Source: an uncultured delta proteobacterium
GTDB taxonomy: Bacteria; Myxococcota; Myxococcia; Myxococcales; 40CM-4-68-19
Direction of reading: 5' to 3'
DNA: 64,000 bases
NCBI GenBank assembly: GCA_903911145.1
Contig: CAIWCD010000024.1
Span: forward strand, 186,001 to 250,000
Below are positions 34,340 to 59,105 of the stretch, piece after piece. The notes beneath the pieces are model-generated. The model was not told where the DNA came from and made no database searches. It saw only the letters and a list, made by a program, of their open reading frames with translations. Each line of letters starts with the position of its first letter. Positions within the stretch are counted from its first letter, which is position 1. Both the position numbers and the translations under genes were made by a program.

Positions 34340-37300
34340 TTGGCCAATGACACTTCGTCGATGGTGCCTGACTTCCAACTCTCGGTCGACGGCACTGCCG
34401 CCGATCCCGAGATGAAGGCATCGGTCATCGGCATCCGCGTCACCGACGACATGGACAAGGCGGGGCAGTTCCAGATCCACCTCTCGGATGCGGGCAACAA
34501 GTATTCCAAGGGCGACACGTTCAAGGTCGGCACCAAGATCGAGATCAAGCTCGGTTATCAGGGAAAACTGACCAGCGTCTGCAAGGCCGAAGTTGCGACG
34601 CTGGAGATGGTGTTGTCGCCGGATGGTCCCTCACGCCTTGTGGTTGCGGGCTTCGATCAAGGCCAGACCTTTTCGAAGGGCACGGTTACCAAGACCTATA
34701 AGGACGTAAAGGATTCCGATCTCGCGCAGCAGATCGCGCAGCGCAACGGCCTGCAATGCGATGTCGAGGATAGCAAGGTCGTCCACGATTACGTCCTGCA
34801 GAACAACCTGACCGATTACGATTTCCTCGCCCAGCGCGCGGCGCTGGTTGGATATCGATTCTTTGTTGACGATACCAAGCTGATATTCAAGACGCCGCAG
34901 GTCAAGGGCGATGCGGTTGCGACGCTGACCTGGATGCAGAACATCGGGCGGTTTATCCAGGAAGTGAATACCTACGACCAGGTGTCGAAGGTAACTCCGA
35001 CCGGTTGGGACATGACGAAGAAGGCTGCGCCCACGCCGCAGAAAAGCAAGAAGGGGGACGAGTTCGGCACGATGGGCGGCACCATGACGGGTGCCGAGTT
35101 GGTGAAGAAGATGTTCGGCGAGGCGGAGAAGTTCAATACCACCGCGTCGGGCCAGCAGAACCTTCTCGAGGCGGTTGCCAAGGCTGAGTTTAATAAGCGC
35201 GCCGGCGCATTCGTTTCTGCGGAAGGGCGCATCACCGGCGATCCGTCGGTCCGCGCCGGTTCGGTGATCGACGTCCAGAAGGCCGGCAAGCGCGTCGACG
35301 GACAGTATTACATCGTTCGCACCAACCATATCTTCTTCTCCGACTCGGGTTACGCGACCGAGTTTAATGCCCGCCGGTACACGATTAACAAGCGCGCGGC
35401 GCCGGTGAAGGATCTCACCAAGTTCACGAAGGAGCTGGCGGACGCGGCGAAGAAGGCTGAGGAGATCGCAGAGAAGATCAAGGACGCCGCGAGTTGGACG
35501 CTCAAGGCTGCGCGCGAGGCCGCGAAGAAGGCGCAGGTCGCGTTCGATGCCGCCAAGAGCGGCATGGACACGATTAAAGATGCGCTGAGCCAGGTCAAGA
35601 AGGAGGCGGGCGCAGATGCCGAGAAGACGCTGAAAGGCCTCGAGGCGCAGATATCGACCATCAAGGCCCATCTCGGGGATGCGGTCGCAAAGGTTTCCGA
35701 GGCTGCGACCGAGGCGGGGAATGCGGCGCAGGACGACGCAAAGAAGGCGTTGACCGCTGCGCACGAGGCTGCAGACAGCGTCGTGCAGATCGCGCAGAAC
35801 GCGTTTCAGCATCTGCTCGACGGATTCGATGCGGTCAAGGCCGCGGCGCAGGACGCCGTGCAGACTGCGAGCAAGGAGATCTCAAGCGCCGTCCAGGTGA
35901 TTAAATCGGCGCTGACGACCGCGGCCGAGATGGCAATTACCATCGGTAAGGCCGGAATGACGCTCGCGCAGGCCGCGCTGATCAAGGGCAAGAGCGCGAT
36001 TGAAATGTGCGCCGCGTCGGCCGTCTCAATGGCACAGGGCCTGATTGGCGGCCTCGGTGGCGACCTTTCCAGCATCATGTCGACCGTCTCGGCCTCGGGC
36101 GCATCAGCGCTCACGTCGGTGACCTCTGCGATTGCCTCTGGCGCCCAGCACGCGCTCGACCTGGCGAAGACCGCAGTCAGCAACGCGCTCGATGCCGTCA
36201 AGAAGGCGAAGGACGCGGTCACAGGCGCGATGGATAATTTGAAGCACACCATCGGCGACAAGCTGAAGGGATATATCGATCAAGCCAAGGGCCTGATGAA
36301 CCAGGTCAAGGGTAAGATCGACGAGTACAAGAAGAAGTTCGAGGAGATTAAAAACAAGGTTGAAGACACGATTAACAAGTACGGCGGCAAGTGGATTGCC
36401 GCTGGTATCTACATCAAGGAACACGGGCAGAAGTGCTATGACGCCGGTAAGAAGTGCCTCGATGCGTGCAAGACCGCAATTGAGGATCTGAAGCAGAAGA
36501 AGTGGGACGATGCGGCGAAGCAGCCCGATACGATTAAGTCGAACTTCGCGACGGCGAAGACTGAAGCCGAGAACGTAACCAATAAGCTTCAGGAGGTGGT
36601 GAATGACCTCCCGGACAGCGTCAAGGAGACGCTGCAGAAGATTGTCCAGGGAGTGAAGGATTGGGTTGAGAAGGGCGATGGCACCGTCCAGAAGACGCTG
36701 CAGGCGATCATCGCGAAGGTCGGCAAGCTCGCGAAGGAGGCGCAGGAGTATTACGAGAAGGCGAAGGCCCTCTACGATCAGGCCAAGGCTGCCTACGATA
36801 AGTATAAGGGGATGTTCGAGCAGTTGAAGGATTTCTATGAGGCGGCGAAGGAGACCTACTCCTACGGCGAGAAGGCTTGGAATGACGGCAAGGCCGCCGT
36901 TGCGAAGTGCAAGGATGCGCTCGCCAAGGTCGAGAAGCGCGACTTCGATGGTGCAAAGAAGGATGGCGAGGACGCCAAGACGCAGTTCGAAGCCGCGAAG
37001 GCCGATGCCGAGACCTGTTATGCGAAGGCGAAGGAGGCTTACGAGAAGCTTCCCGAGACGGTCAAGAACGCGCTCGCGCAGTTGGTTGATAAGCTGCAGG
37101 GGCTGATGTCGACGGGTGACTCGACGCTCGCCAAGACGCTCGCCGAGATTGAAAAGAAGATCGGCGATATGGCCCAGAAGGCCGAAGCGTTCGCCGGCGA
37201 GGTCGAGAAGAAGGTCGGCGAGTACAAGGCCAAGTTCGATGAGTACAAGAAGGACTTTGATCAGATTAAAAAAGTGATCGAAGAGGGCAAGGCCGCAGTT

Positions 37301-40300
37301 GATGCGGGTAAGCTCGCTTATGAAAAGGGAAAGGCCTGTTTCGATAAGGTGAAAGACGGAGTCGCGCAACTCGAGAAGCACGACGTCGATGGCGCGAAGA
37401 AGACGGCGACTGAAGCGCAGGTGCTCTTCGATGAAGCGAAGACCGCCGCCGAAGATTGCTATGCAAAGGCCGAGAAGGCGATTAACGACGTTCCCCAGGA
37501 TGTGAAGGATATCATCCAGGGGATCGTTGATAAGGTGAAGTCGTTAATCCCCGCAGGAGGCGGCAGCGGCGGCGATAGCGCATTCAGCAAGTTCCTCGCG
37601 GAGATTGAAAAGGGAATCGGCGCGGCGGCGCAGGAGTGCAAGGAACTCGCGACGAAGGCGAAGGACGTCTTCGAAAAGGCCAAGGGCGAGTACGAGAAGC
37701 TCAAGGGTGATTTCGATAAGATCAAGGACCTGATTGGCAAGGCGCTCGAAGCCAAGGAGCACGGCGAGAAGGCCTGGGACGCGGGCAAGCAGACGATCGA
37801 GAAGGCGAAGGACGCGCTCGATAAGCTGTTTAATGCGCACGATACCGATGGAGCGAAGGCCGACGTCGAGGCGGCGAAGACAACCTTCGAGACGGCAAAG
37901 ACCGAAGCAGAGGCCTGCTATAAGGCGGCTGAAGACGCGCTCAATGACGTGCCGCAGGACGTGAAGGATGCGATCCAGGCGGTCGTCGATAAGGTGAAGG
38001 CGCTGATTGCGTCATCGGGCGATGGTAAGGATTCCGCGCTGGGTCGCGCGATCGCTGAAATCGAAAAGGGCATTGGCAAGGCGATCGAAGAGGCGAAGAC
38101 GCTGGTCGCGAAGGCGAAGGGCGTCTTCGACCAGGCCAAGACCGAATACGACAAGCTCAAGGGTGATTTCGATAAGATTAAAGAGTTCGTTGGCGATGCG
38201 CTCGCGGCAAAGGAGCACGGCGAGAAGGCCTGGGAGGCCGGCAAGCAGACGATCGAGATCGCCAAGGGGGCATTTGAGAAGCTCTTCAAGTCGCACGACT
38301 ACGACGGCGCGAAGGCGGATGCAGAGAAGGCCAAGACGTCCTTTGAGACGGCGAAGACCGAGGCCGAGGCCTGCTATGCGGCGGCAGAGAAGGCGCTTGC
38401 CGATGTTCCGCAGGACGTGAAGGATGCGATCAACGCAATTGTAACCAAGGTCAAGGACCTGCTTGATAAGTCCGGGGGCGCGACTGATTCGCCCTTGTCT
38501 CGGCTGCTCGCGGAGATTGAAAAGGGCGTTGGCGCCGCGATTGACGAAGCGAAGAAGTTGGTCGCCGAGGCGAAGACTACGTTTGATAAGGCCAAGAGCG
38601 AATACGATAAGCTCAAGGGTGATTTCGATAAGATCAAGGACTTCGTCCAGGATGCACTCGCGGCCAAGGAGCACGGCGAGAAGGCCTGGAACGCGGGCAA
38701 GCAGACTGTCGAGACGGTGAAGGACGGCCTCGATAAGTTATTCAAGGCGCGCGATTACGAGGGCGCGAAGGCCGACGCAGAGAAGGCAAAGACTTCATTT
38801 GAGACCGCCAAGACCGAGGCCGAGGCGTGCTATGCGGCGGCCGAGAAGGCGATTGCCGATGTCCCGCAGGACGTCAAGGACGCCATCACCGCGATTGTCG
38901 CGAAGGTGAAGGAGTTGCTCGCCAAGACGGGCGGGTCGAACGACTCACCGTTCTCGCGGTTCCTCGCGGAGATTGAGAAGGGCGTCGGCAAGGCCATCGA
39001 CGAGGCGAAGAAGCTCGCCACCGAGGCAAAGGAAACCTTCGACAAGGCGAAGGCGGAGTACGACAAGCTCAAGGGCGATTTCGATAAGATTAAGGACTTC
39101 GTCCAGGATGCGCTGGCGGCGAAGGACCACGGCGAGAAGGCTTGGGCCGCGGGCAAGGAGACCATCGATACAGTCAAGGGCGCGGTTGAGAAGCTCTATA
39201 AGGCGCAGGATTACGACGGCGCGAAGGCCGATGCGGAGAAGGCGAAGACCTCGTTCGAGACCGCAAAGACCGAGGCCGAGGCCTGCTACGCGTCGGTTCA
39301 GAAGGCGATCGCGGATGTGCCGCAGGACATCAAGGACGTCCTGCAGTCGCTCGCGGACAAGATTAAGGACATGGTCGGCAAGGTTGGCGGCTCGAATGAT
39401 TCGCCGCTCTCCAAGCTGCTTGCGGAGATTGAGAAGGGCATTGGCGCGGCCATCGCGGAAGCAAAGAAGTTGATGACCGAGGCGAAGAGCACGTTCGAGA
39501 AGGCCAAGAGCGAATACGATAAGTACAAGGGTGATTTCGATAAGATTAAGGAGTTCGTGACCGACGCGCTCGCGGCCAAGGATCACGGTGAGAAGGCGTG
39601 GAACGCGGCGAAGGATACGGTCAATACGGTCAAGGGCGCGTTCGAGAAGCTCTATAAGTCGCACGATTACGACGGTGCGAAGAGCGACGCGGATAAGGCC
39701 AAGAGCTCTTACGAGACGGCGAAGACCGAAGCCGAGGCCTGCTATGCCGCGGCCGAGAAGGCGATTGCCGATGTTCCGCAGGACGTGAAGGACGCGATCC
39801 AGGCGATCGTGACCAAGCTCAAGGAGTTGATGCCGAAGGCCGGCGGCAGCGACGACTCCGCGCTCGGGAAGCTGCTGGCTGAGATCGAGAAAGGCGTTGG
39901 CGCGGCGATTGCCGAGGCGAAGAAGTTCGCGGAGGAGGCTAAGAGCGCGTTCGATAAGGCCAAGAGTGAGTACGATAAGTATAAGGGCGATTTCGATAAG
40001 ATTAAGGAGTTCGTCAAGGACGCGCAGGAGGCGAAGGACCACGGCGTCAAGGCATATAATAAGGCGAAGGACCTGCTCGGAAAGTGCAAGTCGGCGCTCG
40101 ATAAGGCCAAGAAGCACGACTATGCTGGTGCGGAAGGCGATGGCAAGGCTGCGCAGTCGTCGTTTAATGAGTGCAAGACGGAAGCGGAGGCTTGCTATGC
40201 TTCGGCCGAGAAGGCTTATGCGGATCTGCCGCAGGACGTAAAGGACGTGCTGCAGGGCGCAGTCAATAAGATCAAGGCGATGGTTGATAAGGCGGGCGGC

Positions 40301-43300
40301 AGCAGCGACTCCGCGCTTTCGCGCACGCTCGCCGCAGTGGAAAAGAAGATTGGCCAGATTGCTGATGGGGCGAAGAAGCTTGCCGAGCAGGTGAAGTCCA
40401 AGGTCGACGAGGCGAAGTCGTTCTATGACGCGCATAAGGGCGATATCGATAAGTTGAAGAACTTTATCGATGACGCGAAGGACGCGCGCGATCACGCGGC
40501 GAAGGCGATCGATCTCGCCAAGCAGCTGCTGCCGAAAGTGAAGGACGCGCTCGCCAAGGCGAAGGCGAAGGATTGGGATGGTGCGAAGGCTGCGCTCCCC
40601 GATATCGAGGCGCAGGGCAAGGAGCTCGCGACCGAGGGGCAGGCGGCAGAGGCCGCGGGCCAGAAGGCCTACAACGACCTTCCCGACTCGGTGAAGCAGG
40701 CGCTCGCGTCGCTCGTGGACAAGGTCAAGGAGCTCGTCGCGCATCACCAGAAGGCGGCCTCAGACGCGACGAGCGCGATCCAGGCGCAGAATCCGGATGC
40801 GGCCTCGAAGGCCTCGGATGCGGCGACGAGCAACGTCGGTGCAGCAGCGACTGCGGCTGACGGCGCGACCAGCACGGTGCAGAGTACGGCCGACGCGGCC
40901 AAGAGCGACATCGGCGGCAAGCTGCAGTCCGTTCAGACGCAGATTGAGGGTGCGCTCGGCAAGGTCGCTGGCGCGCAGGACAAGTCGGCGCAGTCGGCGC
41001 AGAGTTCGTGGGACTTCATCCTCGATAAGGCAAAGCAGTATCTGGCCGAGGCGAAGACGGTAGATGCCGAGGTGCAGAGCGCGGTCAAGACCGCGCAGGA
41101 TGCTGTCGCGCAGGTCAAGGGCTCGTTCGCGAAGGCCGCGACGAAGCTCGATCCGATCCTCGCCAAGATTCAGGAAGTGGCCACGCAGGCGGGTACGCTG
41201 ATCGACGAGGCCTCGAAGGCGGTCGACGAGCTCTCGAGTGCGAACATCGAGGCGATCGCGGCCGACGTTGAAGCGTTTATTCAACTCTGTGAAGGGGATT
41301 CGTCGGGCATTAAGAAGTTAATCGAGGATGCGGCCAGCAAGGCGCTGTCGCGCGTCACGGGCGTGATGGATTCGGTCAAGAAGGGCGTCGAGGATTCGAT
41401 CGGCAAGGCGCAGGGCCTGCAGCAGCAGGGAGCCAAGGTCGCCGATCAGGCCAACGGCTGGTCGAAGGACGGCGCGCAGAGTGCGCTCGACGCGGCCAAG
41501 AGCGCATTTGCCGATGTCGAGAAGGCCTACAACGACGCGAAGACCCAGTACGACACGCTGACGAAGGAGGTTCCGACGCTCGCCAAGCAGTATGGCGATC
41601 AGGTCGTGGCGCAGGCGAAGCAGGCCTACGACACGTCGAAGAATCTGCTTGAGAAGGCGCAGAGCGCGGTTACCGATCTCGCCAAGAGTGACATCGACGC
41701 GGCCCGCACCTCGGTCGACGGCATCGTCAGCACCGCGACGGCCGGCATCGAAGACCTCAAGAGCAAGCTCGACGCGACGGCCAACAGCGCGAAGACGAAC
41801 GTGACGAATCTCGTCGAGGGCACCAAGCAGAACGTCGAGGCGCTGCTCGCGAAAGTGAAGGAGCTGGCGACGCATGGCCAGGGCGTTGCGGACAAGGCCA
41901 GCGCCTGGTCGAAAGAGGGCGCTCAGACGGAGCTCGATCAGGCCAAGAGCGTCTTCGCCGACGTGGAGCGCGCGTTCAACGACGCGACCGCCAAGTACAA
42001 CGAGCTGAAAACCCAGGTTCCAGCGCAGGCCAAGGCGTTCGGCGATCAGGTTCTCGCGCAGGCGCAGAGCGCGTACGACACCGCGAAGAGCGTCGTCGCG
42101 AAGGCCGAGAAGGCCGTCTCCGATCTCGCCAACAGCAGCATCGATGAGGCGCAGAGCGCGGTCGACTCCACCAGCAAGACGGTGCAGACCGGCATCGACG
42201 ATCTGAAGGCCCAGTTCGATTCAGCGGTGAAGAAGGCCAAGGAGATCATCACGCAGCTTGTCGATGGAGCGAAGGCGGCAGTCGACGCCGTGCTCGACGG
42301 CGGCAAGCAGCTTCTGCAGTTTGGTACCGACGTCGTCGATCAGGCAGACGCGTGGGCCAAGGACAAGGCGCAGAGCGCACTCGATCAGGCGAAGGCGAAG
42401 TTCGCCGAGGTCGAGAAGGCCTACAACGACGTGAAGGCCAAGTACGAGGAGCTGCTCAAGCAGGTTCCCGTTCAGGCCAAGCAGTTTGGCGAGCAGGTTC
42501 TTGCGCAGGCGCAGAAGGCCTACGACACCGCGAAGAGCATGGTCGACAAGGCGCAGGCTGCCGTCGAAGATCTTGCCAAGAGTGCGCTCGAAGAAGCGCG
42601 CACCGCCGTCGACGCGGCCAACAAGCACGCGCAGGCCGGAATCGATGAGGCCAAGCAGCACGTTGATGCCACGGCCAACGACGCGAAGACGATGGTCTCG
42701 AATCTCGTCGATGGAGCAAAGGCGAACATCGACGCGCTCCTCGTGAAAGCGCAGGAGCTTGTCCAGCACGGCCAGGATGTCGCGGACCACGCAGCGGCCT
42801 GGTCGAAGGACGAGGCGCAGCGCGCGCTCGACAGCGCGAACAGCGTCTTCGCGGAGATCGACAAGGCGTTCAACGACGCGAAGGCGAAGTACGCAGAGCT
42901 CGAGAAGACGGTTCCCGCCCAGGCCAAGGCGTTCGGCGAGAAGGTGCTCGCCGAGGCGCAGACAGCCTACGACACCGCGAAGTCGGTCGTCGACAAGGCG
43001 AAGGCCACCGTCGAGGACCTCGCGAAGAGTGCGCTCGACGACGCGCAGGCCGCGACCGACAAGGCGAGCCAGATCGCGCAGGCCGGCATCGATGACGTGA
43101 AGGCGCAGCTTGACAAGAGCGCCGAGGACGCGAAGGGGATCGTCGGCACGCTCGTGGACGGCGCCAAGAGCGACGTCGAGGCGCTGCTCGCCAAGGTGCA
43201 GACGCTGCAGCAGCACGGCCAGGATCTCATCGATCACGCCGATGCCTGGGCGAAGGACAAGGCGCAGAACGCGCTCGCTGACGTGAAGAATGGCTTCGCT

Positions 43301-46300
43301 GATGCGGAAAAGTCGTTCGAGGACGCGAAGGCCAAGTGCAGCGAACTGGTCAACAACGTTCCGGGCCAGGCCAAGGAGTACGGCGATCCGATTCTCGCGC
43401 AGGCGCAGGCCGCCTACGACATGGCCAAAAGCCTCGCGCAGAAGGCGGAGGCCGCCGTCAGCGATCTCGGCGCGAGCGAACTTGCGGCCGCGCGCGATGC
43501 CGCCACGACCGCGCAGAAGAGCGCACGGGCCGGCATGGACGACGTGGGCTCGACGCTCGCGCAGAGCACGCAGAAGGCCCAGAGCACGGCCGGTACCCTC
43601 ATCGACAGTGTCAAGCAGCAGGTCGAGCACGCGCTGGCGAAGGCGCAGGAGCTCCAGCAGCACGCCCAGACGACAACCGACCATGCGCTCAACTGGTCGA
43701 AGGACGACGCGGCCAAGGCGGTCGCGGATGCGCAGAGCGTCTTCAGCGAGTGCCAGGCGGCCTACCAGGCGGCGCAGAAGTCAGCAGGGGATCTCGCTGA
43801 CCACATGGGCGAGAACGCGAAGGCGGCGGCGGCACCGATCCTCGAGCAGGCGAAGACCGCCTACGACACGGCGAAGGCGCTGCTCGACAAGGCGAAACAG
43901 GCCGCGGGCGAGCTCGACAACAGCAATCTCGATGAAGTGAAGAAGGCCACCGTCGCGGCGCAGAGCGAAGCAACGACAGGGCTCGACGATGCGCAGAAGC
44001 AGTACGCCGACAAGGGCGGCGCTGCGAGCACCGACATCAACACGCGCGTCGAGGACACCAAGAAGCAGGTTCAGTCGGCGAACGACCTGCTCACTCAGCT
44101 CGTGCAGCACGCCAAGGACATCGCAGCGAAGGCGCTGGGGCGCACGCCCGACGACGCGAAGAAGACGCTCGCGATGGCCGAGGACGCGGTCAAGCAGTGT
44201 CAGGCAGCGTATGACGCCGCGAACGGAAATCTTACGGCGCTGATCAAGTCCGCGCCGCAGCTTGCGCAGAAGGTCGGGCCGCCGCTCGTCGATCAGGCCA
44301 AGCAGATGCTCGCCGACGCGCAGTCGCTCTACGATCAAGCGAAGAAGGCCGTCGACGAGATGGACGGCGATGGCTTGAAGGACGCCCAGTCGCACCAGAG
44401 CGACGTCGAGAAGTTCTTCTCGAAGTTCTGGGAGGCCGCGAAGGGCGAGGTCGACAAGATTGCGCAGGACATGAAGAAGAAGATTGAGGACAACGTCAAC
44501 GCGCTCCTCAAGAAGCTCGAGAGCGAAGTCCTCGACGCGATCAAGAAGACGATGGAGAAGGGCCTCGAGACCGCGATGAGCTCGTGGGATCTCGACGAGG
44601 CGGCCTCCGCGACGAAGGCCGAGGGAACGCAGCAGCTCAAGGAGTTGATGAAGAAGGCGCTCGCCGACTGCAAGGATCAGCTCGCCGAGCTCTGGAAGGA
44701 GTTCAAGGGAGAGCTGCAGACGGCCGGCGGGGACATGCTCGGCAAGATGATGATGGGCTCAGACGGCGCAAGCTCGATGGCCGACAAGAGCAAGTCCGCG
44801 TCCGATGAGGTGCAGAACAATCCCGTCAAGCAGGCCGACGCGCACCACGCAGACACGAGCGCCACGCACAAGGCCGGGCAGGATGCGCACACGGCCGACG
44901 GCGACAAGCACGAGAGCCAGACCAAGTCGGTCCTCTCGACGATGAAGGACACCTACAGCAAGCTGCACGACGCCGGCTCGAAGCTGCAGGGGCCGCTCAA
45001 CGCGATTCTCAAGAACAGCGACACCGCGATCGGCAAGAGCGCCGGCGTGCTGATGTCCGAGGCGCGCGGCGCAGTCGACATGATCCAGGCGGCCTACGAG
45101 GACGGACAGGCTGCGTGGAAGGAAGTGCAGACGCACAAGGACAGCATGAAGTCGCTGGCCTCGCGCATCCCCGAGATCGCCAAGCATGTCGAGGACGCGA
45201 CCGGGCATCTCGAGGAGTCTGCGAAGCATGCCGAGTCGGCGTTCGCGCAGGCCAAGGCGACGGTCAAGACGCACGAGGGGGCGCTCGCCGAAGAGGCGGT
45301 CAAGCTGACCGCTGCGGCCGAGGCGGCCACCAAGAAGGTCGAGGAGTTCCTCCAGAAGGCCAAGGAGCAGGCTGCGCGTGTACAGCAGCTCGCGGCACAT
45401 CTGCCGTTCCGCGCGGGCGCCGGAGATGTCATCCAAGGCGCAGTCGCCGCGGTGGAGAGCGTGATCGGCTCGGCGAGTTCGGCGAAGTCGAGCGCCAGCG
45501 ACGCCAAGGATACCGCGACAGAAGCGTGCAAGGTCCCCGACGACCAGAGCGTGCATGAGGCCGCGCTCAACTCGCTCGAGCAGGCCGAGAAGGCGACCAA
45601 GAGTGCCGACGAGGGGATTGAACACGCGCAGAAGGCCGTCGATAGCGCGCGCAACCAGGATGGCTCCGGCGCCAAGCAGAACGCGAGCAACGCCGCCGCA
45701 CAGCAGAAGAAGGCCGAGGACGCCGGCAAGGACGCGAGCGCCACGTCGGCGCAGGCCAAGCAGCAGGCGAGCGCCGCGCAAGGAAAGAGGGAGCCTCCAC
45801 GAGACGAAGTTGCTCCTGATGCGCAGTCGAAGGGTGGTCAGGCGGGAGCCGCGGGGCAGGGGGCGGGCGCAACTGGTGCCACTGGCGCAGCCGCGGGCTC
45901 CGCTCCGGACGCGAAGGCTGCCGCGGGTCAAGCGCCGGGCGCGGCCGGCGCCGCCGGCGATGCGCAGGCCGCGGCAGGGAAAGCGAAGGACGCTTCCGCG
46001 AAATCAGAGGGAGCGGCGGGGCAGGCGCAGACCGCCGCTGGCGCGACCCCTGGCTCTGCTGCGGATGCTGCGAATGCGGCCGCTTCGGGAGCCGTCGGCG
46101 ATGCGCAAGCCGCCGCCGCGATCGCCGAGCAGGCCAAGTCGCAGCAACCGCCGTCGGTTCCCTCCTCTGACGCCGCCGCAGCAGCTGCGGCAGGCGCCAT
46201 TCCACAGCCTCCTGCCGCGCCCGGAGTTCCAGCGGCTCCCGCTGCACCCGGAGTTCCTGCGGCTCCCTCTGCACCCGGAGTTCCTGCGGCTCCCTCTGCA

Positions 46301-47380
46301 CCTGGAGTTCCTGCGGCTCCCTCTGCACCTGGAGTTCCTGCGGCTCCCTCTGCACCCGGAGTTCCAGCGGCTCCCTCTGCACCCGGAGTTCCTGCGGCTC
46401 CCTCTGCACCCGGAGTTCCTGCGGCTCCCTCTGCACCCGGAGTTCCTGCGGCTCCCTCTGCACCTGGAGTTCCTGCGGCTCCCTCTGCACCCGGAGTTCC
46501 AGCCGCTCCCTCGGCCCCGACCACTTCTGGCTCACCAGGAGCATCCTCTGCGAGTTCTGCTGCGTCGTCGAACGAGCTCCCGCTGCCAGATGCGACGCCC
46601 GGCAAACCCGCGCCGATGGCCTCTCAGAACGAGCTCCCTCTCCCGGAGGCCGCAGCCGGTCCGTCGGCTGGGCGCCAGGCAACCGCGGTTCCTTCGAGTG
46701 CTTCACCAAGTGCCGTCTCCCAAGCGGCCCCGCCACCGGTTTCCACAACGGCCAGCCCTGCCTCTGCGTCGTCTTCCTCGAGCTCAAGCACGCTCCCGCT
46801 GCCAGACCCGGGCGCACCGATCGCGACAGCCACGGCGGGCGCCAGCGCAAACATTCCGTCGGCCGATGGTGCCGTGAACGCGGCCGGCAACGAGCTGCCG
46901 CTGCCTGATTCCGTCGCCTCTGATGTGGCGAGCGGTGAGTCGGTTGCGAGCGACGCAGCGTCAGGAGAGTCGGCGGCAGGCCAGGCGGTCAACACCGCCG
47001 AGTCGGTCGAGGAGGTCGCTGCGGATGCGGCATCGTCGGTCGGCGAGCCCGCGTTGCCCGACGCCAGTGCGGCATCGGCTCAGGCCTCGGCCGCCGCATC
47101 GAACGAGCTACCCCTTCCGAACGCGAACGAGCTCGAGCTGCCTGACGCCAATGAACTCGAGCTTCCCGACACATCGGAGGCGGCCGATGTCGCAGCGAGC
47201 GCTTCCGAGGATGCCCAGAGCGCACAACAGACGGCAGCGCAGGCCCAGCAGAGTGCCGCGGATGCGCAGAAGGTTGCCGCTGACGGGCAGAAGAGCGCCG
47301 CCGACGCGCAGAAGAGCGCAAGCGATGCCTCCGATCAGGCCAAGCTTCCGGGCCCGGACGATGGGAGCGACCTCGGATAA
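34340..47380 (+). CDS. Giant CIS protein: gpD-type hub fused to tape-measure-like repeat coiled coil
   Basis: The protein has 4,346 residues. Start TTG 34340 has GGGAG 7 nt upstream; the next in-frame ATG (34361) has no ribosome site. Residues 1-350 are a gpD/late-control-D hub domain: VIGIRVTDDMDKAGQFQIHL, TVTKTYKDVKDSDLAQQIAQ, NNLTDYDFLAQRAALVGYRF and GSVIDVQKAGKRVDGQYYIV, as in VgrG/Afp8 hubs. From about 357 to 3820 the sequence is almost pure Ala/Lys/Asp/Glu helix. It includes a small-residue hydrophobic stretch (about 530-640), ten family-A repeats (about 651-2134) and seven family-B repeats (about 2374-3416). Residues 3820-4346 are Ala/Gly/Pro-rich, with an 11-copy nonapeptide minisatellite and NELPLPD-like motifs. 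No enzyme or signal motif. No separate tape-measure gene is present. An elongated surface fibre is the main alternative. Confidence 0.9.
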   Translation: MANDTSSMVPDFQLSVDGTAADPEMKASVIGIRVTDDMDKAGQFQIHLSDAGNKYSKGDTFKVGTKIEIKLGYQGKLTSVCKAEVATLEMVLSPDGPSRLVVAGFDQGQTFSKGTVTKTYKDVKDSDLAQQIAQRNGLQCDVEDSKVVHDYVLQNNLTDYDFLAQRAALVGYRFFVDDTKLIFKTPQVKGDAVATLTWMQNIGRFIQEVNTYDQVSKVTPTGWDMTKKAAPTPQKSKKGDEFGTMGGTMTGAELVKKMFGEAEKFNTTASGQQNLLEAVAKAEFNKRAGAFVSAEGRITGDPSVRAGSVIDVQKAGKRVDGQYYIVRTNHIFFSDSGYATEFNARRYTINKRAAPVKDLTKFTKELADAAKKAEEIAEKIKDAASWTLKAAREAAKKAQVAFDAAKSGMDTIKDALSQVKKEAGADAEKTLKGLEAQISTIKAHLGDAVAKVSEAATEAGNAAQDDAKKALTAAHEAADSVVQIAQNAFQHLLDGFDAVKAAAQDAVQTASKEISSAVQVIKSALTTAAEMAITIGKAGMTLAQAALIKGKSAIEMCAASAVSMAQGLIGGLGGDLSSIMSTVSASGASALTSVTSAIASGAQHALDLAKTAVSNALDAVKKAKDAVTGAMDNLKHTIGDKLKGYIDQAKGLMNQVKGKIDEYKKKFEEIKNKVEDTINKYGGKWIAAGIYIKEHGQKCYDAGKKCLDACKTAIEDLKQKKWDDAAKQPDTIKSNFATAKTEAENVTNKLQEVVNDLPDSVKETLQKIVQGVKDWVEKGDGTVQKTLQAIIAKVGKLAKEAQEYYEKAKALYDQAKAAYDKYKGMFEQLKDFYEAAKETYSYGEKAWNDGKAAVAKCKDALAKVEKRDFDGAKKDGEDAKTQFEAAKADAETCYAKAKEAYEKLPETVKNALAQLVDKLQGLMSTGDSTLAKTLAEIEKKIGDMAQKAEAFAGEVEKKVGEYKAKFDEYKKDFDQIKKVIEEGKAAVDAGKLAYEKGKACFDKVKDGVAQLEKHDVDGAKKTATEAQVLFDEAKTAAEDCYAKAEKAINDVPQDVKDIIQGIVDKVKSLIPAGGGSGGDSAFSKFLAEIEKGIGAAAQECKELATKAKDVFEKAKGEYEKLKGDFDKIKDLIGKALEAKEHGEKAWDAGKQTIEKAKDALDKLFNAHDTDGAKADVEAAKTTFETAKTEAEACYKAAEDALNDVPQDVKDAIQAVVDKVKALIASSGDGKDSALGRAIAEIEKGIGKAIEEAKTLVAKAKGVFDQAKTEYDKLKGDFDKIKEFVGDALAAKEHGEKAWEAGKQTIEIAKGAFEKLFKSHDYDGAKADAEKAKTSFETAKTEAEACYAAAEKALADVPQDVKDAINAIVTKVKDLLDKSGGATDSPLSRLLAEIEKGVGAAIDEAKKLVAEAKTTFDKAKSEYDKLKGDFDKIKDFVQDALAAKEHGEKAWNAGKQTVETVKDGLDKLFKARDYEGAKADAEKAKTSFETAKTEAEACYAAAEKAIADVPQDVKDAITAIVAKVKELLAKTGGSNDSPFSRFLAEIEKGVGKAIDEAKKLATEAKETFDKAKAEYDKLKGDFDKIKDFVQDALAAKDHGEKAWAAGKETIDTVKGAVEKLYKAQDYDGAKADAEKAKTSFETAKTEAEACYASVQKAIADVPQDIKDVLQSLADKIKDMVGKVGGSNDSPLSKLLAEIEKGIGAAIAEAKKLMTEAKSTFEKAKSEYDKYKGDFDKIKEFVTDALAAKDHGEKAWNAAKDTVNTVKGAFEKLYKSHDYDGAKSDADKAKSSYETAKTEAEACYAAAEKAIADVPQDVKDAIQAIVTKLKELMPKAGGSDDSALGKLLAEIEKGVGAAIAEAKKFAEEAKSAFDKAKSEYDKYKGDFDKIKEFVKDAQEAKDHGVKAYNKAKDLLGKCKSALDKAKKHDYAGAEGDGKAAQSSFNECKTEAEACYASAEKAYADLPQDVKDVLQGAVNKIKAMVDKAGGSSDSALSRTLAAVEKKIGQIADGAKKLAEQVKSKVDEAKSFYDAHKGDIDKLKNFIDDAKDARDHAAKAIDLAKQLLPKVKDALAKAKAKDWDGAKAALPDIEAQGKELATEGQAAEAAGQKAYNDLPDSVKQALASLVDKVKELVAHHQKAASDATSAIQAQNPDAASKASDAATSNVGAAATAADGATSTVQSTADAAKSDIGGKLQSVQTQIEGALGKVAGAQDKSAQSAQSSWDFILDKAKQYLAEAKTVDAEVQSAVKTAQDAVAQVKGSFAKAATKLDPILAKIQEVATQAGTLIDEASKAVDELSSANIEAIAADVEAFIQLCEGDSSGIKKLIEDAASKALSRVTGVMDSVKKGVEDSIGKAQGLQQQGAKVADQANGWSKDGAQSALDAAKSAFADVEKAYNDAKTQYDTLTKEVPTLAKQYGDQVVAQAKQAYDTSKNLLEKAQSAVTDLAKSDIDAARTSVDGIVSTATAGIEDLKSKLDATANSAKTNVTNLVEGTKQNVEALLAKVKELATHGQGVADKASAWSKEGAQTELDQAKSVFADVERAFNDATAKYNELKTQVPAQAKAFGDQVLAQAQSAYDTAKSVVAKAEKAVSDLANSSIDEAQSAVDSTSKTVQTGIDDLKAQFDSAVKKAKEIITQLVDGAKAAVDAVLDGGKQLLQFGTDVVDQADAWAKDKAQSALDQAKAKFAEVEKAYNDVKAKYEELLKQVPVQAKQFGEQVLAQAQKAYDTAKSMVDKAQAAVEDLAKSALEEARTAVDAANKHAQAGIDEAKQHVDATANDAKTMVSNLVDGAKANIDALLVKAQELVQHGQDVADHAAAWSKDEAQRALDSANSVFAEIDKAFNDAKAKYAELEKTVPAQAKAFGEKVLAEAQTAYDTAKSVVDKAKATVEDLAKSALDDAQAATDKASQIAQAGIDDVKAQLDKSAEDAKGIVGTLVDGAKSDVEALLAKVQTLQQHGQDLIDHADAWAKDKAQNALADVKNGFADAEKSFEDAKAKCSELVNNVPGQAKEYGDPILAQAQAAYDMAKSLAQKAEAAVSDLGASELAAARDAATTAQKSARAGMDDVGSTLAQSTQKAQSTAGTLIDSVKQQVEHALAKAQELQQHAQTTTDHALNWSKDDAAKAVADAQSVFSECQAAYQAAQKSAGDLADHMGENAKAAAAPILEQAKTAYDTAKALLDKAKQAAGELDNSNLDEVKKATVAAQSEATTGLDDAQKQYADKGGAASTDINTRVEDTKKQVQSANDLLTQLVQHAKDIAAKALGRTPDDAKKTLAMAEDAVKQCQAAYDAANGNLTALIKSAPQLAQKVGPPLVDQAKQMLADAQSLYDQAKKAVDEMDGDGLKDAQSHQSDVEKFFSKFWEAAKGEVDKIAQDMKKKIEDNVNALLKKLESEVLDAIKKTMEKGLETAMSSWDLDEAASATKAEGTQQLKELMKKALADCKDQLAELWKEFKGELQTAGGDMLGKMMMGSDGASSMADKSKSASDEVQNNPVKQADAHHADTSATHKAGQDAHTADGDKHESQTKSVLSTMKDTYSKLHDAGSKLQGPLNAILKNSDTAIGKSAGVLMSEARGAVDMIQAAYEDGQAAWKEVQTHKDSMKSLASRIPEIAKHVEDATGHLEESAKHAESAFAQAKATVKTHEGALAEEAVKLTAAAEAATKKVEEFLQKAKEQAARVQQLAAHLPFRAGAGDVIQGAVAAVESVIGSASSAKSSASDAKDTATEACKVPDDQSVHEAALNSLEQAEKATKSADEGIEHAQKAVDSARNQDGSGAKQNASNAAAQQKKAEDAGKDASATSAQAKQQASAAQGKREPPRDEVAPDAQSKGGQAGAAGQGAGATGATGAAAGSAPDAKAAAGQAPGAAGAAGDAQAAAGKAKDASAKSEGAAGQAQTAAGATPGSAADAANAAASGAVGDAQAAAAIAEQAKSQQPPSVPSSDAAAAAAAGAIPQPPAAPGVPAAPAAPGVPAAPSAPGVPAAPSAPGVPAAPSAPGVPAAPSAPGVPAAPSAPGVPAAPSAPGVPAAPSAPGVPAAPSAPGVPAAPSAPGVPAAPSAPTTSGSPGASSASSAASSNELPLPDATPGKPAPMASQNELPLPEAAAGPSAGRQATAVPSSASPSAVSQAAPPPVSTTASPASASSSSSSSTLPLPDPGAPIATATAGASANIPSADGAVNAAGNELPLPDSVASDVASGESVASDAASGESAAGQAVNTAESVEEVAADAASSVGEPALPDASAASAQASAAASNELPLPNANELELPDANELELPDTSEAADVAASASEDAQSAQQTAAQAQQSAADAQKVAADGQKSAADAQKSASDASDQAKLPGPDDGSDLG
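36290..40740 (+). repeat. Family A: ten coding repeats of about 152 residues
   Basis: Ten tandem units of about 441-474 nt can be followed by a recurring K-G-D-F-D-K-I-K segment (37.7, 38.16, 38.61, 39.07, 39.53, 39.98 kb and weaker at the ends) and by a D-V-P-Q-D-V-K-D segment. Inner units share EAKSEYDKLKGDFDKIKDFV-like sequence, then AKEHGEKAW, then TAKTEAEACYAAAEKA. The first and last units both carry D-L-P-D-S-V-K and lack the cysteine that the inner eight have. Helical by composition. Confidence 0.85.
41459..44587 (+). repeat. Family B: seven coding repeats of exactly 149 residues
   Basis: A Trp codon in an (A/G/N)-W-(S/A)-K-(D/E) motif recurs at 41459, 41906, 42353, 42800, 43247 and 43694: exactly 447 nt each time. 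A degenerate seventh copy (LGRTPDDAKK) stands at the next 447-nt step. Each unit continues ADVEKAYNDAKxxY, then VPxQAKxFGxQVxAQAxxAYDTAK and VEALLAKVxELxxHGQ. There is no indel across more than 3 kb. The sequence differs from family A. Confidence 0.88.
46217..46513 (+). repeat. In-frame 27-bp minisatellite, 11 copies
   Basis: GGAGTTCC recurs every 27 nt from 46223 to 46493. It encodes eleven copies of the nonapeptide APGVPAAPS with only one or two synonymous or single-base variants. It lies inside the Pro-rich C-terminal region of the giant gene and should form a stiff, extended linker. Copy number may vary between strains. Confidence 0.92.
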
Positions 47381-47485: not shown

Positions 47486-47557
47486 GTCGTGGCTACCCCA
47501 CTCACTTCGAACCTAGCCTTCGGGAGAGATCCCAAGAAGGTCGAGAAGCGTCCACCG

Positions 47558-48229
47558 ATGGCCCAGCACCAGATCATCCGCGACGTTGGCCAGACACTGC
47601 TTGGCGTGCTTCGCGCCGAGTTGTCGGCCCAGCGCTCGAAGGCGAAGGCCCTGTTGGCTACGCCGACGCCGGAGTTCCTGCGCAAGAGTGCGCCGGCGCT
47701 GGTGCTGTACCTGTACGACTTGCGCGGAAACCAGCACACGCTTCAGGGTGAGCACTGGCAGCGCGAAGAAGAGATCGTCGACGATAACGGCGACGCGCAC
47801 ATCGTCGTCTACGAGCGGCCGCTCGAACTCGAGTTGCGCTATCTGCTTTGCGCCAACTGCGAAGAGCTGGCCGACGAACATGAGCTGCTCGCCATCGGCA
47901 TGAAGGCGCTCCTCGAAAACCAGCTCATCACGGCGGCCAATCTGTCAGGCGATTCGTGGACTGACCAGGACAAGCTTCACGTTGTCCACGACCAGGAGTT
48001 CGACCTGCAGACCTGCCGCGCGGTCTTCGGCGGATTCGGCGCCGGACCGAAGGTTGCCGTCGGCTATCGCTCCAAGGTTCGCCTTGCGTCAATGCGGGAA
48101 CTGTCGCGCAGCAAGCGCGTCCGGCAGCGACATATCGATGTCTTTGACCCACTTCGTCCACCCCCAGGCAGCGTGACCGCCAAGGAGCTGGGGTTGGAGG
48201 CGAAACCGAAGCTGGTTTCGAAGAAGTAA
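47558..48229 (+). CDS. DUF4255 tail-terminator protein (Afp16/Pvc16-like)
   Basis: The protein has 223 residues from ATG 47558, where the family's own N-terminus begins (IIRDVGQTLLGVLRAEL). An in-frame GTG at 47489 would add 23 residues and lies upstream of the likely transcript start. APALVLYLYDLRGNQ and ERPLELELRYLLCANCEELA, then D-E-H-E-L-L, match DUF4255 (N-L-Y-L-Y-x-x, P-x-x-L-D-L-x-Y-L). In Afp and PVC the homologue caps the tube and sheath at the end away from the baseplate. It sits directly before sheath 1. Confidence 0.88.
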   Translation: MAQHQIIRDVGQTLLGVLRAELSAQRSKAKALLATPTPEFLRKSAPALVLYLYDLRGNQHTLQGEHWQREEEIVDDNGDAHIVVYERPLELELRYLLCANCEELADEHELLAIGMKALLENQLITAANLSGDSWTDQDKLHVVHDQEFDLQTCRAVFGGFGAGPKVAVGYRSKVRLASMRELSRSKRVRQRHIDVFDPLRPPPGSVTAKELGLEAKPKLVSKK

Positions 48230-48342: not shown

Positions 48343-49578
48343 ATGGCAACGTCGTATCTCTCCCCTGGCGTCTACATCGAGGAAGTTGACCGCGGAACCA
48401 AGCCCATCGAGGCCGTCGGAACATCGACTGCGGCCTTCATTGGCGAGTCATCGGTCGGCCCCACCAACGAGGCCGTTCTCGTCACCAACTGGGCGCAGTA
48501 CACGCGCACGTTCGGCGATTTCGCGCACTCGACCCACCTCTCCCACGCGGTCTACGGCTTCTTCAACAACGGCGGAACCAAGGCGTTCATCTGCAACGTC
48601 TCGCCGAAGACGATGACGCCTGAGCAGGCCGCAAAGGAGGCCGAGAAGAAGGAGTCCGAGGCGAAGGCCGCTCCGGCTGGCAAAGCTGCTCCGGCCGCCG
48701 CTCCTGCCGCCGCCGCTGGCGTGAATCCCGCGCTCTTCATCGGCAAGGATGAGGGTCCGGGCCGCCGCACGGGCCTGAACGTCTTCAATGACATCTCCGA
48801 GATCAGCCTCGTGATGGCGCCTGGCCAGTCTGAGCCGGCGATCCAGGACGCGGTCATCTCGCACTGCGAGAACAACAAGTACCGCTTCGCGATTCTCGAC
48901 GCGGCGGAAGAGCTCGGCAAGGACGGCATCGCGAAGATGCCGAAGCCGCGCGACTCGCAGTACGCCGCCTACTACTTCCCGTGGATCCAGGTCTATGACC
49001 CGGAGAAGGGCAACATCTTCGTTCCGCCCTCGGGCCACATGGCCGGCATCTACGCTCGCTCCGACTCTGAGCGCGGCGTGCACAAGGCCCCGGCGAACGA
49101 GATCGTTCGCGGAGCCCTCGGCCTGCGCTACAACATCACGCGCCCGGAGCAGGACTTCCTCAACCCGCGCGGCATCAACTGCATCCGGAACATGGGCGAC
49201 CGTGGCATCCGCGTGTGGGGCGCGCGCACCATCTCGAGCGACCCGTCGTGGCGTTACATCAACGTCCGCCGCCTGTTCCTCATGATCGAGCAGTCGATCG
49301 AAATCGGAACGCAGTGGGTCGTCTTCGAGCCGAACAGCGAGACCCTGTGGAAGCGCGTCACGCGCGACATCACGGCGTTCCTGCTCCGCATCTACAACTC
49401 GGGCGCCCTCATGGGCAAGACGCCGGAAGAGGCGTTCTTCGTCAAGTGCGACGCCGAGACCAATCCCCCTGAGGTTGTCGACGCCGGCCAGATGGTCTGC
49501 GAAATCGGCATCAGCCCGGTCAAGCCGGCGGAATTCGTCATCTTCCGCATCGGCCAGATGGCAGGCCAGGCGAAGTAA
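48343..49578 (+). CDS. Contractile tail sheath protein 1
   Basis: The protein has 411 residues; AAGGAGCAG precedes the ATG. The N-terminus SYLSPGVYIEEVDRGTKPIE and GTSTAAFIGESSVGP, then H-A-V-Y-G-F-F-N-N-G-G, are standard for CIS sheaths. The C-terminus has WVVFEPNSETLWKRVTRDI, a KCDAETNPPE segment and ISPVKPAEFVIFRIGQ. A 35-residue Ala/Lys-rich insert (about 105-140) lies between the N-terminal and central parts. Sheath subunits form the contractile outer cylinder. The second sheath gene lies 1.4 kb downstream. Confidence 0.96.
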   Translation: MATSYLSPGVYIEEVDRGTKPIEAVGTSTAAFIGESSVGPTNEAVLVTNWAQYTRTFGDFAHSTHLSHAVYGFFNNGGTKAFICNVSPKTMTPEQAAKEAEKKESEAKAAPAGKAAPAAAPAAAAGVNPALFIGKDEGPGRRTGLNVFNDISEISLVMAPGQSEPAIQDAVISHCENNKYRFAILDAAEELGKDGIAKMPKPRDSQYAAYYFPWIQVYDPEKGNIFVPPSGHMAGIYARSDSERGVHKAPANEIVRGALGLRYNITRPEQDFLNPRGINCIRNMGDRGIRVWGARTISSDPSWRYINVRRLFLMIEQSIEIGTQWVVFEPNSETLWKRVTRDITAFLLRIYNSGALMGKTPEEAFFVKCDAETNPPEVVDAGQMVCEIGISPVKPAEFVIFRIGQMAGQAK

Positions 49579-49634: not shown

Positions 49635-49703
49635 CTGGCGGTTCTGCGCAGTGTGTAGTGGTGGTCCCGGAGGCGACAAACCTACCGGGATGCCGTGCAC
49701 GAT

Positions 49704-49722
49704 ACACCCCATGACGGGGTGT
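49704..49722 (+). promoter_or_regulatory. Hairpin immediately upstream of the tube 1 ribosome site
   Basis: ACACCCC (49704-49710) pairs with GGGGTGT (49716-49722) around a 5-nt loop. It ends a few bases before the Shine-Dalgarno AGGAG of tube 1. It may protect the 5' end of a processed tube mRNA. Confidence 0.45.
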
Positions 49723-49742
49723 CCAAACGAGGAGAATCACAC

Positions 49743-50213
49743 ATGGCAACTCCGTTGAACAATCGTCAGAACGTCGGCGGCCGTCTGAAGAACTCGGGCG
49801 ACTACAATCTCTCAACCAAGTTCTCCGTCGAGATCGCCGGCCGCGTCGTCGGCTCGATCATCTCGGTTGACGGCCTCGAGCACTCGCACGAGACGGTCGA
49901 GTACAAGGACCCCGAGGACATGACCACCCGGTACCGCCCGGGTAACAACAAGACCACGCGCATCAAGATCACGCGTGAGTGGTCGAACGACACGACCTTC
50001 ATCGACTGGTATCAGACGGTCGTGCAGGGCAACACCGATCGCCGCACGATCACGGTTTCGCTCCTCTCGGACAGCGGCCAGGCGACGATGGGCCTGAACT
50101 TCTACAACGCCTATCCTGAGACGTATGCCTTCCCGAGCTTCAAGTCGATGGGTTCCGCGCACGCGATCGAGTCGCTGACGTGCGTCTACGAGAACTTCGA
50201 CTACAAGAAGTAG
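49743..50213 (+). CDS. Contractile tail tube protein 1 (gp19-like)
   Basis: The protein has 156 residues from ATG 49743, with AGGAG upstream. STKFSVEIAGRVVGSIISVD, then G-L-E-H-S-H-E-T-V-E-Y-K-D, and ITREWSNDTTFIDWYQTVVQ match the T4 gp19-like/Afp1 tube family. Hexameric rings of it stack into the inner tube. Stem-loops flank the gene on both sides, consistent with high, separate expression. Confidence 0.95.
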   Translation: MATPLNNRQNVGGRLKNSGDYNLSTKFSVEIAGRVVGSIISVDGLEHSHETVEYKDPEDMTTRYRPGNNKTTRIKITREWSNDTTFIDWYQTVVQGNTDRRTITVSLLSDSGQATMGLNFYNAYPETYAFPSFKSMGSAHAIESLTCVYENFDYKK

Positions 50214-50973: not shown

Positions 50974-52224
50974 ATGTCGAGCCTCTATAAATCGCCGGGC
51001 GTTCACATCGAGTCGGCGGGCGACCGGTACATTCCGCTCGAGCGCGTGCGCACGGGTGTCTGCGCGTTTCTTGGCGTCACGTCGAAGGGGGCGCGCAACG
51101 AGCCCACCAAGATCGGCTCGTGGGAGCAGTACAAGAAGCTGTTCGGCGATGACGAGAGTCACATGGCGCAGGGCGTGCGGGGCTTCTTCGCCAATGGCGG
51201 GAGCGAAGCATACGTCCTCAATATCGCGCCGGCCGGCGGACTCGACCCCGTGCCCGACGATTACATCGGCAACCAGGGGAGCGAAGAGCGCGGGCTGCGC
51301 AAGCTCGAGCGCCTCGATGACGTCGACCTGATCGCCGCTCCCGATCTCGCTGGCCAGTACGGCAAGTCAGTCGGATTTCCCGAGCGCTCCAACGTGCTCG
51401 CCGTCCAGCGCGCAATCGTCGATCATTGCGAACTTCTCCACGACCGGTTCGCCATCCTCGATGCGCCGCGCAACTTGTCCGTCGACGAGGTCCTGGCGTG
51501 GCGGAAGAATTTCGATAGCTCGCACGCGGCGCTCTACTACCCGTGGATCAAAGTGCGCATCGGGGAGAACGTCGGCGAGCCGATCCCTCCATCGGGTCAC
51601 GTCGCGGGCCTGTTCGCACAGTACGACAAGAGCGAGGGCGTCCACCGCGCCGCTGCAAACGTGAAGCTCGAGGGGATTGTCGATGTCGCGACCCGCCTGA
51701 AGAAGCGCGAGCGCGACCACCTCTTCGATCACCAGATCAACACGCTCGTGCCCTTTCCCGGTCGCGGCTTGCGCACCTGGGGAGCCCGAACGCTCTCGAG
51801 CGACGCGCAGTGGAAGCAAATCAACGTGCGCCGCATCTTCATTCTGGTTCGCAAGAGCATCGACATCTACGCCCAGTGGGTGGTGTTCGAGCCGAACGAG
51901 CCGTCGCTCTGGAAGAAGCTGACCCGCTCGATTGAAGTCTTTCTCGGCGACCTCTGGACGGAGGGCGCACTGCTCGGCGCGAGCAAGGGCGAGGCCTTCT
52001 ACGTCAAGTGCGACGAGGAGACGAATCCTCCAGAGACGCGGGATGTCGGGCAGCTGATCGTCGAGATCGGCATCTCGCCCGTGCGTCCCGCGGAGTACAT
52101 CATCGTGCGCATCCACCAGTTCACGCGCGAGCACACGGACGCCGACAAGGAGGCCTCGGATGAAGAGGCCAAACTGGAATCAGCGCGGGCGGCAGAGGCA
52201 GCGCGGGCGGCGGCGGAAGGCTAG
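50974..52224 (+). CDS. Contractile tail sheath protein 2
   Basis: The protein has 416 residues. SLYKSPGVHIESAGDRYIPL, GVCAFLGVTSKGARNEPTKI, and V-R-G-F-F-A-N-G-G mark the sheath N-terminus. The C-terminus parallels sheath 1 (WVVFEPNEPSLWKKL, KCDEETNPPE, ISPVRPAEYIIVRIHQF) and adds a 30-residue acidic, Ala-rich tail. It is clearly diverged from sheath 1, not a recent copy. Multiple sheaths are normal in Afp/PVC-type loci, where minor sheaths form the first rings on the baseplate. Confidence 0.95.
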   Translation: MSSLYKSPGVHIESAGDRYIPLERVRTGVCAFLGVTSKGARNEPTKIGSWEQYKKLFGDDESHMAQGVRGFFANGGSEAYVLNIAPAGGLDPVPDDYIGNQGSEERGLRKLERLDDVDLIAAPDLAGQYGKSVGFPERSNVLAVQRAIVDHCELLHDRFAILDAPRNLSVDEVLAWRKNFDSSHAALYYPWIKVRIGENVGEPIPPSGHVAGLFAQYDKSEGVHRAAANVKLEGIVDVATRLKKRERDHLFDHQINTLVPFPGRGLRTWGARTLSSDAQWKQINVRRIFILVRKSIDIYAQWVVFEPNEPSLWKKLTRSIEVFLGDLWTEGALLGASKGEAFYVKCDEETNPPETRDVGQLIVEIGISPVRPAEYIIVRIHQFTREHTDADKEASDEEAKLESARAAEAARAAAEG

Positions 52225-52470
52225 CCGAGGGTCGAGTTGCGGCAGCTTGATTCCGTTCGGCCTGCGGCGTGGTGGGCTGACGGCGGCTTGTCTGGGTCGC
52301 TGACACTCAAGAGAACCTGTGTCTGGGCAAGCGGTTGCGACTGGTGGCCGCGTCCATTGGCGGCTACCCCCTAGTCAGCCTGTTCCATCCATGGTAGACT
52401 GTCGCGAGCTGAAGGGCTGTCCTCAAGTCGTGCGCGTTTGCGCAGCTTCGGGGCGCTCCGGAGGAACTGC

Positions 52471-52923
52471 ATGGCCCCGCCTGGAAAGCGACGCGATCCG
52501 CACACAACCTCCTCGTTCAAGGTTGAGATCGACAACATCGAGGTCGCGACGTTCCGGAAAGTCTCGGGCGTCAAGAGCGAGACCGAGGTGTTCGAGTACC
52601 AGGAGGGAGGCAACAATGAGACGATCTACAAGCTCATTGGGCAGACCAAGTATTCGAACGTGATCCTCTCGATCGGCTTCACCGCAGACCCGTCGTTCTT
52701 CAAGTGGCGCGATGAGGTGCATACGAGCGGTGGCAGCGGGAAGATCTCCCGTCGCAATGGCTCCATCGTGCAGCTCGATCGCGATGGCAAGACCGAGATC
52801 AGCCGCTGGAACTTCCAGAAGGCCTGGCCGGTGCGCTGGGAGATGAGCGACTTCGACACTTCGTCGGGGCAGGCGACCATCGAGACGATCGAGCTGGCTG
52901 TCGAGCGGATCGTCAAGGCTTAG
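52471..52923 (+). CDS. Contractile tail tube protein 2 (gp19-like)
   Basis: The protein has 150 residues from ATG 52471, with GGAGGA 6 nt upstream. SSFKVEIDNIEVATFRKVSG, then E-Y-Q-E-G-G-N-N-E-T, and NVILSIGFTADPSFFKWRDE match the gp19-like family. This is the Afp5-like second tube protein, probably the first ring that joins the tube to the LysM/gpV hub. The 246-nt gap before it contains no gene I can support and no strong promoter. Confidence 0.94.
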   Translation: MAPPGKRRDPHTTSSFKVEIDNIEVATFRKVSGVKSETEVFEYQEGGNNETIYKLIGQTKYSNVILSIGFTADPSFFKWRDEVHTSGGSGKISRRNGSIVQLDRDGKTEISRWNFQKAWPVRWEMSDFDTSSGQATIETIELAVERIVKA

Positions 52924-59068: not shown

Positions 59069-59105
59069 CGTGGGCGTGCGGCGGCGCCAGCAGAGAGGCA
59101 GTTGC

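Follow-up and report, generated by a model that had tools for sequence, protein, structure and literature searches.

A giant helical rod extends the hub half of a split VgrG in a contractile injection system of uncultured Myxococcota

The DNA analysed here, referred to as the window, is a stretch of 64,000 nucleotides from an uncultured member of the Myxococcota. On its + strand, positions 34340-47380 form a single open frame of 4346 aa with no internal stops, which starts at TTG and has a GGGAG-like ribosome site upstream. Residues 1-353 of the encoded giant protein (34340-35398, + strand) correspond in profile and PDB matches to the hub domain, the gp27/gpD-type N-terminal half of VgrG. Residues 1-350 match the tail protein family PHROG_52 (E = 6e-29), and the hub is matched by the NCBIfam model VgrG_rel NF033848 over model positions 5-347 (E = 8e-41), by the PDB spike chains of AlgoCIS (7aef, E = 1e-22), Anabaena tCIS (7b5h, E = 5e-17) and 9gtr (E = 1e-15), and weakly by Pfam gpD (E = 0.001). 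Judged by profile detection, which spans the whole domain, residues 1-350 are a VgrG/gpD/gp27 hub, in agreement with a first-pass annotation that had recognised a gpD/VgrG-type hub in the first ~350 residues.

The giant gene is the largest of its operon and adjoins the gene of the cap. Directly downstream on the + strand, family matches identify the Pvc16_N cap/terminator (Cis16; 47489-48229), sheath A (48343-49578), tube A of gp19 type (49695-50213), sheath B (50974-52224), and tube B, also of gp19 type (52438-52923). These are followed on the same strand by a Gly/Ser-rich protein of 1569 aa (52972-57681) and, after it, by a CIS_tube plus LysM protein of Cis7/Afp7 type (57727-58350; family match). 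Upstream on the + strand lie genes with family matches to the baseplate wedge proteins gp25 (Cis9; 23990-24379) and gpJ (Cis11; 24457-27432) and to a gpI-like tail protein (Cis12; 27496-28413), and a CIS13-like gene (28482-29999) with a weak match to NF053767 (E = 7e-8). Homologues of Cis1/2/5/7/9/11/12/15/16 (sheath, tube, CIS_tube-LysM, gp25, gpJ, gpI, AAA ATPase and Pvc16_N) are found together, as in an extracellular contractile injection system (eCIS). The sole other long-helix protein of the cluster is an FHA protein with ~470 helical residues (18213-20801, - strand), which is probably regulatory. Between 18213 and 32177 a Ser/Thr kinase, several FHA proteins and a VWA-FHA protein stand amid the baseplate genes, a T6SS-like phospho-regulation in an eCIS-type cluster. 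An FHA-transglycosylase fusion, a lipoprotein-like protein and an outer-membrane-barrel-like protein (12428-13969, 14005-15411 and 59070-60158) are kept with the cluster in relatives, a hint that the machine operates across the envelope of the cell that makes it, or is anchored there.

Beyond the hub, residues ~353 to ~3775 of the giant protein are amphipathic helix, 2998 residues being helical in a simple scan, with a hydrophobic period of 3.62-3.64; over helices of 80-107 residues the periods are coherent at 3.54-3.64. The first-pass annotation had described almost 4,000 residues of helix; the giant helical rod is real, but its extent is about 3400 residues, broken every 15-107 residues. The rod begins with a conserved N-terminal block (residues ~359-955; 35414-37204, + strand) that is colinear in all sister proteins except that of genome G055. 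A first variable region of ~150-aa helical repeats follows (residues ~956-2115; 37205-40684, + strand), in which the number of repeats differs between species and is zero in G023 and G019. These repeats form a family of 147-153-residue units with a P-motif spacing of 152, 152, 151 and so on. A second family, with a spacing of exactly 149, 149, 149 and 149 residues, builds a second variable region, delimited by repeat spacing and piece mapping (residues ~2520-3264; 41897-44131, + strand). The C-terminal conserved block was located by mapping of 80-residue pieces (residues ~3220-3810; 43997-45769, + strand). The last ~540 residues form a disordered Ala/Pro/Ser tail (45797-47380, + strand) with eleven copies of PGVPAAPSA at 46220-46519 and seven (NE)LPLPD-like motifs. 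The tail is of low complexity and its sequence is not conserved in relatives; the NELPLPD motifs, sought in the sister proteins, are absent there, and since the window species alone has them they are not taken as a functional signal.

A domain profile search across all 4346 residues found no enzymatic or toxin domain and no DUF4157. Pfam matches of DUF5600 and Apolipoprotein on the rod were rejected as compositional, and a profile of the rod repeats retrieved only compositional matches among PDB sequences (designed bundles, keratin and chemoreceptors). A Foldseek search of the repeat model against the PDB gave no match below E = 0.02. AlphaFold2 models of residues 1-1110 (8 sequences; pLDDT 45, pTM 0.25) and of two repeats (18 sequences; pLDDT 59, pTM 0.46) are poor and too weak for topology, and served for helix boundaries only. 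Both contain long helices with short breaks, and their highest local confidence (pLDDT ~75) lies near the HDYDG turn of each repeat. This turn resembles the hairpin turn of TPR proteins, a weak indication from the models that the rod may consist of hairpins and would therefore not be one continuous helix.

The second half of VgrG is encoded separately, by an OB/spike gene at 58391-59068 (+ strand) that matches Phage_base_V and positions 364-540 of NF033848. The 547 positions of this model are thus covered by two genes, the hub (5-347) and the spike gene (364-540), and by this measure the VgrG of the window system is split into a hub half and an OB/spike half. The giant polypeptide is not a full-length VgrG: it lacks the OB/spike part and scores 139.9 with NF033848 against a cut-off of 275. 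Because the model divides between the hub and the gene at 58391-59068, the rod starts where the OB domain would follow; its onset lies ~15 residues past the end of the hub, at the VgrG split. Hub and spike are likewise split in CIS clusters of Myxococcaceae, with a stand-alone hub of about 361-379 aa adjoining the spike gene, so the split is not unique to the window clade, whereas the rod is. Orphan OB/spike copies were also observed inside large frames (G024:C90, G025:C599 and G027:C59); the orphan OB/spike proteins at L118:2888-8605(-), L119:1398-7232(-) and L120:3-4016(-) are about 58-66% identical to the operon spike, in frames of 1300-1950 aa. Since orphan spike copies sit in frames of this size, the OB/spike half seems to bear passengers too.

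Orthologues were sought in 195 genomes of the phylum. Seven sister-family genomes have the operon-type hub at 64-68% identity, and G055 has it at 46%; the same hub-rod fusion is present in these 8 sister or related Myxococcota genomes, which are MAGs of soil Deltaproteobacteria/Myxococcales. That the giant frame is an ordinary long ORF, or an artefact of gene calling or assembly that merged two genes, is refuted by these data. The TTG start and the low-complexity composition are the only possible hints in its favour; independently assembled MAGs carry the same fusion with a conserved junction, and because it recurs in 8 genomes with hubs 46-68% identical it is neither chance nor misassembly. 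The claim of the first-pass annotation that hub and coil share one uninterrupted frame is thus upheld, both by the 4346 open codons and by the relatives. Where contigs allow, the order of the operon is kept as well: hub-rod, Pvc16 cap, sheath A, tube A, sheath B, tube B, 1569-aa protein, LysM protein, OB spike and a 362-aa protein. The tube A gene is tandemly duplicated in G021 (L036:12686-13631) and G023 (L039:11499-12467).

The length of the hub-rod protein varies widely. Complete proteins have 4346 residues in the window species, ~1823 in G021, ~1767 in G019, 1648 in G023 and 1372 in G055; those of G024, G025 and G027 are truncated by contig ends after 3089, 2485 and 2722 residues. Mapping of 80-residue pieces on the window protein resolves a fixed block at either end, the N-terminal one reaching ~955 and the C-terminal one starting at ~3220-3350, with variable repeats between them, and the rods of G023 and G019 pass from residue ~955 directly to ~3350. 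As read from this mapping, the rod evolves by gain and loss of repeats between fixed ends, a behaviour of tape measures but also of any repeat-built rod. In G055 the operon is present, yet only ~220 helical residues follow the hub (~33 nm at 1.5 A per residue). The same operon is also found in G054, a genome from the order of the window (78% identity in sheath A, 80% in gp25), but there the VWA-FHA gene runs directly up to the cap gene and the hub-rod gene is missing from between them; the hubs of G054 lie elsewhere and have no coil. The example of a rod-less machine is this single MAG. One of these hubs, G054a, is sister to the operon clade and looks internally deleted, with ~70 internal residues missing, and may be decaying. 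A 573-aa helical ORF ~7 kb from the OB/LysM genes of G054 was considered as a separate tape measure and rejected, its sequence reading as TPR-like by eye.

The genome of the window contains one sheath pair and one OB spike gene, but four hubs. The three further hubs are on other contigs and have other C-terminal modules, either CarboxypepD_reg/SpaA-like arrays or long repeat arrays that are Ig-like by eye. They are encoded at C8:1029-2057(-), C8:38844-39863(+) and C35:38229-39239(-) of G000 (L046-L048), where Ig-like, carboxypeptidase-regulatory and Gly/Ser/Asp-rich arrays were observed and no sheath or tube genes adjoin. Orphan hubs of relatives are joined to Amidase_2, OmpA and PG_binding_1 (L088:1486-4389), to a DSP-PTPase related to a polymorphic-toxin phosphatase model (L053:6587-8551), to LysM (L086:1856-3871), or to a region that bears HExxH by eye (L052:1987-5019). 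The genome of the window thus has several hubs with different C-terminal modules for one machine. A tree of 45 hubs unites the operon hubs in a single clade (100/98) and divides the orphans between two others. In G026, which belongs to the genus of the window, the coil attached to a hub of the orphan clade is, over its first ~800 residues, mostly 42-74% identical to the window coil (L045:733-6927). Because this coil sits on an orphan-clade hub, coil and hub have recombined, and modules swap between hub lineages. The tube lumen is about 4 nm wide. Amidase modules or Ig-like arrays in sets of three, side by side, are expected to be too wide for it, and the homologous hubs thus very likely send their C-termini outside the lumen.

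The 1569-aa protein lies between the tube and LysM genes, in the position of the Cis6 plug or tape-measure gene. Its body is variable, but a basic C-terminal stretch, VDAIAQRIYHRIxRRxxxDRERFGG, is nearly invariant in nine genomes. The protein is not a coiled coil, being 5% helical in the scan that was used for the rod, and no family match was obtained. A profile of its conserved C-terminus matched no Cis6 chain in the PDB, so that the term Cis6-like refers to gene position only, and the protein is a positional candidate for the Cis6 plug or tape measure. In Anabaena tCIS, three copies of Cis6 plug the lumen-facing cavity of the spike (PMC8894136), an observation that counts for a rod outside the lumen. 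The lengths of the 1569-aa protein and the rod show a rank association, but phylogeny confounds it and G055 runs counter to it, and no claim is made from it. The first-pass annotation had seen no tape-measure candidate other than the rod; the operon indeed has no other large coiled coil, but the 1569-aa protein holds the plug/tape-measure position.

Several known systems resemble the window system in part. The eCIS spike proteins VgrG/Cis8 (AlgoCIS 7aef, Anabaena tCIS 7b5h and Streptomyces-type 9gtr) share the hub fold over residues ~1-345, and their OB/spike half is also present in the window cluster; in the window, however, hub and spike are separate genes, and an extension of ~4000 aa takes the place of the OB domain. 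The diffocin hub-hydrolase CD1368 likewise has a gp27-like hub that lacks the OB domain and is connected by a short linker to a C-terminal module, the spike being separate, but its module consists of two peptidoglycan hydrolase domains (~245 aa) rather than a giant rod, and the diffocin tape measure is a separate gene (PMC10996793). Evolved and orphan VgrG proteins of T6SS also supply one machine with several spike proteins that differ in their C-terminal passengers; in the window system the passengers are attached to the hub half rather than behind the OB/spike, and the machine is eCIS-like, albeit with T6SS-like kinase/FHA genes. Tape measures such as diffocin CD1366 and Afp14 share with the rod very long amphipathic helices, repeats and the rank of largest gene in the operon. 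They are, however, separate genes, have the C-terminus at the spike (diffocin) and are needed for length, whereas the N-terminus of the rod is at the hub and the rod is missing in the machine of one relative. The Streptomyces proteins Tme and Sle1 (PMC11126660, PMC13277306) are coiled-coil CIS proteins with resemblance to tape measures and genes beside structural genes, but they are not fused to a hub, and Tme has DUF4157 and an endonuclease domain. Hubs or spikes with C-terminal passengers are already known, and the giant helical rod would be a new form of hub extension: in the literature searched, most subscription papers being outside its reach, no fusion of a hub to a tape measure or to a giant rod was found to be described.

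The explanation preferred here, for which the chances are judged about even, treats the hub as a carrier: exchangeable modules would dock at its free C-terminus, and the rod would emerge beside the spike and work outside the lumen, as a tether or passenger. VgrG is divided into a trimeric hub (the gp27/gpD half) and a separate OB-fold spike, and the free C-terminus of the hub would be the attachment point for exchangeable modules serving one machine. The operon hub bears the giant rod of ~150-residue helical repeats, ending in the disordered tail, and the hubs outside the operon bear Ig-like or carboxypeptidase-regulatory-like arrays or, in relatives, amidase, phosphatase or LysM modules; all would serve a single machine. 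Three rods would exit the hub next to the spike, outside the tube lumen. Such a position is suggested by the width of the orphan modules and by analogy to diffocin, in which the C-terminal hydrolase of the hub protein lies at the baseplate periphery (PMC10996793). Instead of measuring the tube, the rod would then be anchored at the hub as a tether or passenger, either holding the baseplate or being pulled along with the spike when the system fires. Counted against the carrier are the poor quality of both AlphaFold models and the tape-measure-like traits that remain, namely the largest gene, its place next to the cap gene, the only large coiled coil of the operon and repeat expansion, as well as the reliance of the rod-less example on the single MAG G054. 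To our knowledge there is no precedent for a rod of 3400 residues outside the tube.

Alternatively, the rod might be the tape measure (Cis14) itself, fused to the hub and housed in trimeric form inside the tube lumen, where it sets tail length, as the first-pass annotation had proposed; this is possible but not favoured. What stands of that proposal is a real hub, a giant helical rod, a CIS operon and repeat variation. The long helical coiled coil expected of Cis14 is present in the structural operon, with ~3000 helical residues in the only such + strand gene and no other recognisable Cis14 there. The fixed ends with variable repeats and the coherent hydrophobic periods over long helices also suit a ruler, and known tape measures are coiled-coil trimers (PMC10996793), fitting a trimeric hub. 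The identification of the rod as the tape measure is not supported. Cis14 would be expected in every machine of the lineage at a length that fits the tail, whereas G054 has no rod and G055 has ~220 helical residues; bulky modules are carried by interchangeable, homologous hubs, and in G026 the coil has moved. The polarity is reversed as well: the separate, trimeric tape measure of diffocin has its C-terminus on the spike and its N-terminus at the collar (PMC10996793), whereas the rod is covalently attached to the hub by its N-terminal end. Furthermore, the 1569-aa protein, with its invariant C-terminal anchor, occupies the classical gene position, and the TPR-like D-Y-D-G-A turns argue weakly for hairpins. 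It is doubtful that a length ruler has become covalently part of the baseplate hub, with reversed polarity and evolution by repeat expansion; such a ruler could give tails several-fold different between sister species, up to ~500 nm if the rod is one continuous helix. Less probable still is that the rod is a hub-tethered lumenal cargo or effector delivered on firing, by a logic akin to that of Tme and Sle1. CIS are known to carry coiled-coil effectors that resemble tape measures (PMC11126660, PMC13277306), and enzyme-like modules are present on other hubs of the same genomes, but the giant protein has no detected enzymatic or toxin domain and no DUF4157, and its tail is of low complexity and unconserved.

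Should the rod prove not to measure length, the family would show a mode of delivery in which exchangeable modules, enzymes among them, dock on the hub part of a divided VgrG and serve one machine per genome; the fusions of hubs to enzymes or to wall-binding modules in relatives would make this a family of carrier hubs. The family also bears on length control, because several eCIS have a fixed length and no recognisable tape-measure gene. The S. coelicolor CIS is fixed in length without such a gene (PMC12237407), so that length in eCIS can be controlled by something else, a point that can be counted in favour of the ruler, and an archaeal CIS has no recognisable cis6 or cis14 (PMC11566945). 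Sister species that share the operon, with hub-attached rods of ~220 to ~3400 residues and in one case no rod, offer a direct test of the ruler. A useful comparison is a different CIS or prophage tail cluster, that of the Myxococcaceae genome G096, in which a separate helical protein of 894 aa lies directly before the hub and spike genes, in a phage-like arrangement (L070:14780-17464).
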